A stretch of 64,000 bases of DNA from Phycisphaerae bacterium (GTDB taxonomy: Bacteria; Planctomycetota; Phycisphaerae; UBA1845), in contig JABWBH010000002.1 of NCBI GenBank assembly GCA_013360585.1, forward strand, positions 88,332 to 152,331, in the 5' to 3' direction. Position 1 is the stretch's first letter. Each line of letters opens with the position of its first letter. Shown here piece after piece: positions 59,361 through 63,682 of this stretch. The translations under genes and the position numbers were made by a program. The notes under the pieces are model-generated. The model saw nothing but the letters and a program-made list of their open reading frames with translations, ran no database searches and was not told the origin of the DNA.

Positions 59361-62300
59361 ATGACTTCATCCGAAATCCGACGCCAGTTCATCGAGTTCT
59401 TCCGTCAGCGCGGGCACACCGTCGTTCCCTCCTCGCCGGTCGTGCCCTTCGACGACCCCACCCTCCTTTTCACCAACGCAGGGATGAACCAGTTCAAACC
59501 GATCTTTCTCGGCCAGAAGCCTGCGGATGTCGACCGGTGGACGGGGGTGACGCCGGGGATGGCGACCCGCGCCGCCAACTCCCAGAAGTGCATCCGCGCC
59601 GGCGGAAAACACAACGACCTCGACGACGTCGGCAAGGACACTTACCACCACACCTTTTTCGAGATGCTCGGAAACTGGTCCTTCGGCGACTACTTCAAGA
59701 AGGAGGCGATCGCCTGGGCGTGGGAGCTGCTCACGAAAGTCTGGGGCATTCCGAAGGAGCGACTCCACGCAACGTACTTTCAGGGCGACGCGGCTGAGGG
59801 CCTTGCACCCGACCAGGAAGCGGCCGACCTCTGGCGTACCACGACCGGCATCAACCCGTCGCACATTCATCCCGGGAATAAGAAAGACAACTTCTGGGAG
59901 ATGGGCGACACCGGTCCGTGCGGTCCGTGCAGCGAGATTCACATCGATCTGACGCCGGATTGCAGCGGGGGGGCTCTCGTCAACGCCGGCGACGCGCGGG
60001 TGATGGAGATCTGGAACCTCGTGTTCATCCAGTTCAACCGTGGCAGTGACGGCAAGCTGACACCCCTGCCCGCGAAACACGTGGACACCGGCATGGGCTT
60101 CGAGCGCCTCTGCTCAGTGCTGCAAGGCCTGTCGGCGGGCAAGCTGGGGAACTTCACGAACTACGACACCGACGTGTTCACCCCGATTTTCGACGCGATC
60201 CGCAAACGCACCGGCGCGCCGGCGTACACGGGAACGCTTCCGGATCAGAACCGCGACCGTCAGGGAGCGAACCTCACGAATCCGGACCGCGCTATCGGAC
60301 GTGAGGCAACCCATCCCAGTCACGGAGAAGGTTCACGACCATCGCCCCCGCAACCGGCGCCGCAGGGGTCGCTCCCTGACGGTCGCGGCTCTGAGCGCGG
60401 GGCGCAAGCGCAGATCATGATCGACGTCTCCTACCGCGTCATCGCCGACCACCTCCGCGCGCTGACCTTCGCGATCACCGACGGCGCGATGCCGAGCAAC
60501 GAGGGTCGCGGGTTCGTCCTCCGCCGCATCCTCCGCCGCGCCGTCCGCTTCGGGCGGCAATATCTGAACATGCACGAACCGTTCATCGGCGACCTGGTGG
60601 AACCGCTCGTGCATTACATGAGCGATGCCTTTCCGGAGTTGCGCACCGCGCACGGCGGGAAGAATGTCAGGCACGTGACCGAAATCATCCGCGACGAAGA
60701 AGCGTCGTTTTTGAAGACGCTGGACCGGGGGATGAAGTTGTTTGATGAGGCGGTGGAGCGGGCGTTGCAGAACCGCGCCTTTCAGAGCCGCGACCGTGAG
60801 GGAGCGAACCTCCGCGCCTTTCAGAGCCGCGACCGTGAGGGAGCGAACCTCACGAACCAGGATCGCGGTCTCGTGCGCGAGAAAACGCCTCTCCCCGAGG
60901 AGGAAAACCTGCCACCATCGTCGCCGCAACCGGTGTCGCAGGGGTCGCTCCCTTACGGTCGCGGCTCAGATGCGACCAGCCCGGACATGCGCAGCGCCTA
61001 CGGCGGCGCCGCGGCTTACTTCATCACGTTTCACACTTACGGAACCTGGCTCCACGGGGCGGACGAAGGCTCCGTTACTACGGGCCGCAACAGCTACGGC
61101 GAACCGACCCTTGATCCCGACGATCGCGCAGTGAGCGCCGAGCAGAAGCGAATGACCGCCCCGGCGTTTGTCATGAACGCAACGCATCGCGCCGTTGTCG
61201 AGACCGCGATTCGGGAGGTTTCGGAGCATCGCAACTGGACGTTGCACGGTCTGAACGTCCGCACCAATCACGTGCATGTCGTCGTCAGCGCACCGGAGGC
61301 GCCCGAACGCGTCATGAACGACTTCAAGGCCTATGCAACGCGGCGGATGAGGGAGGCGGAGTTGATTAAGGCGGACCAGCGGGTCTGGAGTCGCCACGGG
61401 AGCACGCGATACCTTTGGAAACCCGAAGATGTTGCGGGCGCATGTGAATATGTCGCGCTCCACCAGGGAGAAGATCTCCCACAAACACCCCCACAAGCAC
61501 ACGCGCATCCGAGCCGCGACCGTGAGGGAGCGAACCTCACGAACCAGGATCGCGGTCTCGTGCGCGAGAAAACGCCTCTCCCCGAGGGGGAAAACCTGCC
61601 ACCAGCGCCTCCGCAACCGGTGTCGCAGGGGTCGCTCCCTTACGGTCGCGGCTCTGATGGCGTCATTTCCGGCGAGGACGCCTTCAGGCTTCACGACACC
61701 TACGGATTCCCCATCGACCTCACGCAGCAGATGGCCGAGGAGCGCGGACTGACCGTGGACATCGCCGAGTATGAGCGGTTGATGGAGGAGGCGCGAATCC
61801 GAGCGCGCGGGTCGGACCGCGATACCGAGACACCTCTTGAGCCAGAGACGTACGAGCACCTCGGCACGGCTTCATGCGATGATTCTCTGAAGTACCTTGA
61901 ACCACTTGAGTGTGACGCATTTGTGTTCAGCCTGGGAGCACGCTCGACGGGGCTGGACGCCTCTGATTCCGCTCGTCCGGGAGAGCAGATCAGTTTCAGC
62001 ACGACCCAAACCGTTTTCTATGCCGAACAGGGCGGTCAAGTCGCTGACACGGGCAGCCTCGAAGATAAGGATGGCAACGTATTGGTTGAGGTCATCGATG
62101 TCATCCGAAGAGGTAATCATGTTTTTCATCGCGGCATTGTGCGACGTGAAATCACAGCGGGCATCACTGCGCATCTTCGCGTGAATCGTGCTCGCCGTCG
62201 ACTGATCCAGCAGAATCACACCGCCACGCACCTGCTCAACTGGGCGTTGCGCGAAGCGCTCTGCCCGCCGGAGGAGCGCGTCAATCCGCATGTGCAGCAG

Positions 62301-63470: not shown

Positions 63471-63682
63471 CGCTGCTTGCGGGGATGAGCAAAGCGGTGG
63501 TGGACCGCGGTCTGAAGGCAGGCGACCTCATCAAGGAGATCAGTCCGCTGGTCGGCGGCAAGGGCGGCGGACGACCGGACCTCGCCCAGGGCGGCGGAAC
63601 GGATGCGGCGGGGTTGCCGAAGGCGCTCGAAGCGGCGGCTGAGTGGATCCGCAAGCGAATCGCGCAGGCGGCGGGGACATGA
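63327..63682 (+). pseudogene. AlaRS C-Ala domain, displaced to another frame
   Basis: Reads [92 protein letters not shown]..., out of frame with 59361-63470. Confidence 0.85.

Follow-up and report, generated by a model that had tools for sequence, protein, structure and literature searches.

A REP-flanked Y1 transposase lies in frame within the alanyl-tRNA synthetase gene of a Phycisphaerae bacterium and recurs in essential enzymes of its order

Introduction

Inteins and homing elements are mobile elements that shelter in conserved essential genes. The insert described here differs from them in that it shows no self-splicing domain, would remain in the protein and takes a varying position within its loop. 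Smaller in-frame inserts have been described in other bacteria. Rickettsia palindromic elements are in-frame palindromes that occur in many genes and are read through (reviewed in PMC10969869), but they measure about 150 bp and encode a peptide only, whereas the insert studied here includes an entire transposase. Intragenic GTAG/CGTC REPs are found inside ORFs, including those of tRNA synthetases, and flexible loops have been suggested as their location (BMC Genomics 2013, PMC3733652). They belong to other REP families, encode 20-82 aa and are not reported to come with a transposase inside the host gene. The closest described transposases are those of TnpAY1 class 3, stand-alone genes of approximately 178 aa (Quentin et al. 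2018, PMC6006769). The survey that defined them set aside proteins longer than expected, regarding them as fusions or misannotations.

Here we analyse an alaS gene in a 64,000-nucleotide stretch of a Phycisphaerae genome (the window; its genome is G000, a multi-contig assembly of 4.24 Mb that is 97% complete). With a probability of roughly 0.8, we consider that a REPtron, i.e. a REP-flanked Y1 element of the TnpAY1 class 3 type, sits in a loop of alanyl-tRNA synthetase (AlaRS), is translated inside the working enzyme, is sheltered there, and recurs in tolerant loops. In-frame REPs and palindromic elements are already known, and the new part is the repeated presence of whole transposases in essential enzymes: our literature search found no account of entire transposases lying in frame within such enzymes, tRNA synthetases included, a result that is bounded by the limits of the search.

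Results and Discussion

The alaS gene and its insert sites

The alaS ORF comprises 1369 aa without an internal stop and matches TIGR00344 (750.8 bits, cut-off 457). Pfam recovers AlaRS in three pieces with tRNA_SAD and Y1_Tnp within, and the catalytic, tRNA-recognition and editing parts are all present and collinear. The initial annotation had let the gene run from 59361 to 63682; the ORF from 59361 to 63470 stands, but the end at 63682 belongs to another frame. Features are as follows, all on the forward strand.

59361..63470, +, alaS ORF with three insert regions; the final ~47 codons lie outside the native frame
60245..60396, +, R1 in loop A, one complete REP-type unit including its inverted ends but no transposase, reading NRDRQGANL ... 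SLPDGRGS
60782..60820, +, partial 39-nt repeat copy that opens the loop B insert
60821..60972, +, R2, complete repeat preceding the transposase, reading SRDREGANL...SLPYGRGSD
61002..61481, +, Y1 transposase domain of the HUH type, with the HUH histidines encoded at 61269-61271 and 61275-61277 and the nucleophilic tyrosine at 61449-61451
61508..61659, +, R3, complete repeat following the transposase, with 96% identity to R2
63011..63330, +, array at the third site, made of three shortened tandem units without right inverted end, which shifts the frame
63326..63682, +, C-Ala/DHHA1 domain of AlaRS (PF02272, 65.9 bits, 63326-63679), in a frame that differs from the main ORF
63902..64000, +, additional copy of the repeat, interrupted by the end of contig C77 (152331 bases), where the window ends too

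Alignment with human AlaRS places the inserts where the human enzyme has loops of a few residues. The loop A insert (query 299-346) corresponds to residues 304-308 of the human chain and the loop B insert (query 467-763) to residues 418-421; these positions derive from sequence alignment to solved enzymes, the structural model of the fusion being too weak to place inserts. The frame is open across both sites and AlaRS resumes collinear and in frame after each. The ORF, the Pfam matches and the repeats thus bear out, at the first two loops, the initial claim that alaS is interrupted by in-frame mobile inserts.

The catalytic part of AlaRS is under strong purifying selection, with dN/dS values of 0.08-0.11 against three congeners. 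Against congener G001 dN/dS was 0.09 for the catalytic part and 0.14 for the middle part. In one alignment the Y1 domain at site A of relatives was matched to that at site B of the window, which gave thin coverage of the middle of AlaRS. It had been proposed that selection kept the frame open, and these values, with the frame preserved at sites A and B, agree with that; at the third site the array interrupts the frame ahead of C-Ala. In this array the main ORF passes out of its native frame, and it stops at 63470 without including C-Ala, which is in frame in congeners G001-G003. With dN/dS values of 0.28, 0.21 and 0.15 against these three, C-Ala looks to remain constrained. The frameshift may have arisen recently, may be compensated, or may be an error of assembly within the tandem array; the AlaRS of the window may be partly impaired by the out-of-frame domain, or the array may be misassembled. 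An out-of-frame C-Ala is also what a decaying pseudogene could show. Yet this is the sole alaS of the genome, since the search for a second copy proposed earlier found none in the 4.24-Mb, 97% complete assembly, and its catalytic part has the low dN/dS given above, which makes decay extremely improbable.

The repeat family

The three alaS loops carry a single REP-like repeat family of 152 nt with 29-nt inverted ends. Its 19-nt core occurs eight times without mismatch in the window, always inside alaS, and ten times when up to three mismatches are allowed, against 0.49 expected. The core is stop-free in five of six frames, the stop in the remaining frame being set by one variable base, and the peptides SRDREGA and SLPYGRGS represent its two strands. 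As a consequence, an insert of a length divisible by three is expected to be read through.

Copies are found at about 20 places in G000. Several of its contigs, including that of the window (63902-64000), end at or near a copy, so the copy number is probably underestimated. A further copy lies in frame in an apparent glycyl-tRNA synthetase of the same genome (ESAAHQSRDREGATPARETAG, L041:1501-1536, contig C5:46540-46575).

The Y1 transposase domain

The initial annotation had reported a whole transposase domain within alaS, and the loop B insert indeed contains an HUH/Y1 domain with intact HUH and tyrosine residues. It scored 33.1 bits against the NCBIfam REP_Tyr_transpos model (cut-off 80), the criterion for RAYT/TnpAREP class 2, and 33.3 bits against the IS200 model (cut-off 55), that for IS200/IS605 class 1, hence below both cut-offs. 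With TnpAY1 class 3 (PMC6006769) it shares the NHVH motif followed by W, the catalytic tyrosine within YV....Q, a core of ~155-160 aa with a conserved N-terminal part and the Y1 fold, occurrence in Planctomycetes and Acidobacteria, a position between the IS200 and REP types, and atypical flanking hairpins that are present in multiple copies per genome and have a CnGA foot. In the window this foot is represented by CAGA and CCGA preceding an imperfect hairpin in the flanking repeats. By motifs, size, taxonomy and foot the window's transposase therefore fits class 3 as published, a placement based on that description. The difference is that class 3 was described as stand-alone genes, whereas many copies studied here are internal domains of host enzymes.

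Modelled alone with AlphaFold, the domain obtained good confidence, and among known structures the model matched REP transposase 4er8 best and IS200/IS608 enzymes next; a 155-position profile detected no sequence-level relatives among solved structures. The model of the complete fusion, built from a shallow alignment, has a mean pLDDT of 53, with repeat-derived segments below 50 and a confident middle of the Y1 segment, which suits a folded Y1 domain on loose tethers.

It had been left undecided whether the inserts are tolerated or are removed or bypassed. Toleration is favoured, since the loops involved vary in length among relatives. Removal by an intron, an intein or a protease, leaving a mature enzyme of normal form, would account for the tolerance of about 430 extra residues, and the disordered linkers are possible cleavage sites. 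Against this, an intron needs neither an in-frame nor a stop-free insert; Rfam produced only sub-threshold chance matches to group I and II introns over the insert, and no Hint or other intein splicing domain was matched by Pfam in the alaS ORF. We regard removal as very unlikely.

A second, stand-alone Y1 transposase is present in the same genome (contig C57:2916-3257, L062), with a Pfam Y1_Tnp score above that of the embedded copy.

Recurrence across the order

A survey was made of 114 genomes of the same order. Of the Y1 matches listed, 24 of 67 lie in open frames of at least 800 aa, whereas for the control family DDE_Tnp_1 none of the matches listed in the same genomes does, the largest listed frame having 788 aa. 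The open frames around Y1 form two groups with an almost empty length range in between: embedded copies, mostly with at least 230 aa of host sequence on each side, and copies followed by at most 28 aa. All but one of 40 embedded copies keep the HUH and tyrosine residues.

An in-frame Y1 is found in the alaS of 12 genomes from 12 genera, in loop A (G014, G016, G025, G039, G040, G051, G103, G107, G112) or in loop B (G000, G055, G080). The AlaRS of G080 (L144, 1686 aa) has a second in-frame Y1 in the coiled-coil region, the two domains being 61% identical. Hosts other than alaS were named from conserved motifs, with a solved-structure alignment for one valS and one purH: there are 15 valS loci, mostly with the insert in one common loop corresponding to Thermus ValRS residues 364-376, and seven purH loci, all in one common loop directly before the conserved KHTN motif. 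Occasional hosts are leuS, mutS (at the N-terminal end) and methyltransferase genes. Public records place the best-matching carriers mostly in Phycisphaerae or elsewhere in Planctomycetota, and some stand-alone copies in Acidobacteria.

The arrangement might be an assembly or binning artefact, such as a repeat-driven chimera in short-read metagenome assemblies, and both the contigs that end at the repeat and the frame broken by the third-site array could be read in that sense. None of the 12 alaS carriers is a single-contig genome. But AlaRS continues collinear and in frame past sites A and B, unrelated assemblies share the architecture with diverged Y1 sequences, and the purH cases of G024 and G028 and the valS case of G481 are from single-contig genomes. 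An artefact is thus highly improbable. The in-frame Y1 in alaS is not an accident of assembly, given its recurrence in other genomes, and the chimera that the initial annotation named as a possible refutation does not hold, the same arrangement being present in many independent genomes.

Insertion history

Distances between Y1 domains do not follow distances between hosts for alaS (p 0.31) and valS (p 0.16), and in the tree, where many branches are weakly supported, embedded copies are interspersed with stand-alone ones. Taken together, this sequence evidence points to repeated insertion into alaS and valS as the most likely history. One ancient insertion behind all alaS copies was also considered; the Y1 distances and the tree do not support it. 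Presence and absence vary among close relatives: alaS of G112 carries the element, while in its congeners G111 and G113 the loop is short, and the four species of the window's genus all differ at loop B. G000 has the full element, G001 a 19-nt scar (CAGAGCCGCGGCTCTGATG) that corresponds to the joined outer tips of both repeat ends, G002 a degenerate repeat and G003 an unrelated insert.

In purH, Y1 distances do track those of the host (r 0.79, p 0.005) and one pair with a dS of 0.65 shows a dN/dS of 0.12, which makes the residence of Y1 look old and selected, although seven sequences are few. Mobility, and not just a benefit to the host, could be the target of such selection. These purH data, together with the nearly always conserved catalytic residues, are what would be expected had Y1 been adopted as a part of the host enzyme, e.g. 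as a hairpin-binding module that aids AlaRS, ValRS or PurH. Adoption is nevertheless unlikely, given the absence of host tracking in alaS and valS, the interspersed tree, the different loops occupied and the close relatives without insert.

A probable REPtron in tolerant loops

The account that we favour is thus one of a mobile element in a protected seat. A REPtron would have entered a surface loop of AlaRS in frame, and smaller copies of its repeat would have gone into two further loops. Inserts with a length divisible by three would be read through, thanks to a core open in five of six frames, so that the transposase would be produced inside a functional AlaRS, folded as an internal domain and held by disordered tethers. 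Translation would run through the inserts, the fusion would be active as a synthetase, and the embedded Y1 may be active as a transposase. If it were lost imprecisely, the enzyme would be destroyed; the element would therefore be sheltered and its expression guaranteed, and this shelter may be the cause of its persistence. Only in-frame insertions in tolerant loops would survive, which would explain why a small set of long essential enzymes is hit again and again.

Element parasites, then, appear to live translated inside proteins that are indispensable to the cell. More speculatively, and here we lean somewhat towards doubt, a whole transposase lineage might live inside essential enzymes as domains that are translated and expressed together with the host, leaving by precise removal only, still cutting and copying its repeats and, in purH, a long-term resident.

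If so, mobile elements would persist with neither splicing nor intergenic space, by means of read-through and a seat where loss is lethal. This is a testable account of why elements recur in few enzymes, and the loops of AlaRS, ValRS and PurH are natural insertion experiments. A survey that rejects transposase proteins for their length, treating them as misannotated, may lose exactly the embedded cases.

Other in-frame repeats

Unrelated palindromic repeat families occupy AlaRS loops A and C in frame in the congeners G001, G002 and G003 (L071, L067 and L066), for example AATGCGGAATG...CATTCAGCATTC at site C, and alaS of G026 (L070) has a different in-frame repeat, PPSQGGAGG, in loop A. Y1 domains with repeat arrays also occur in frame ahead of MutS, as well as within restriction-type methyltransferases or at their ends (L112 in G058, L111 in G038, L204, and L261 in G404).
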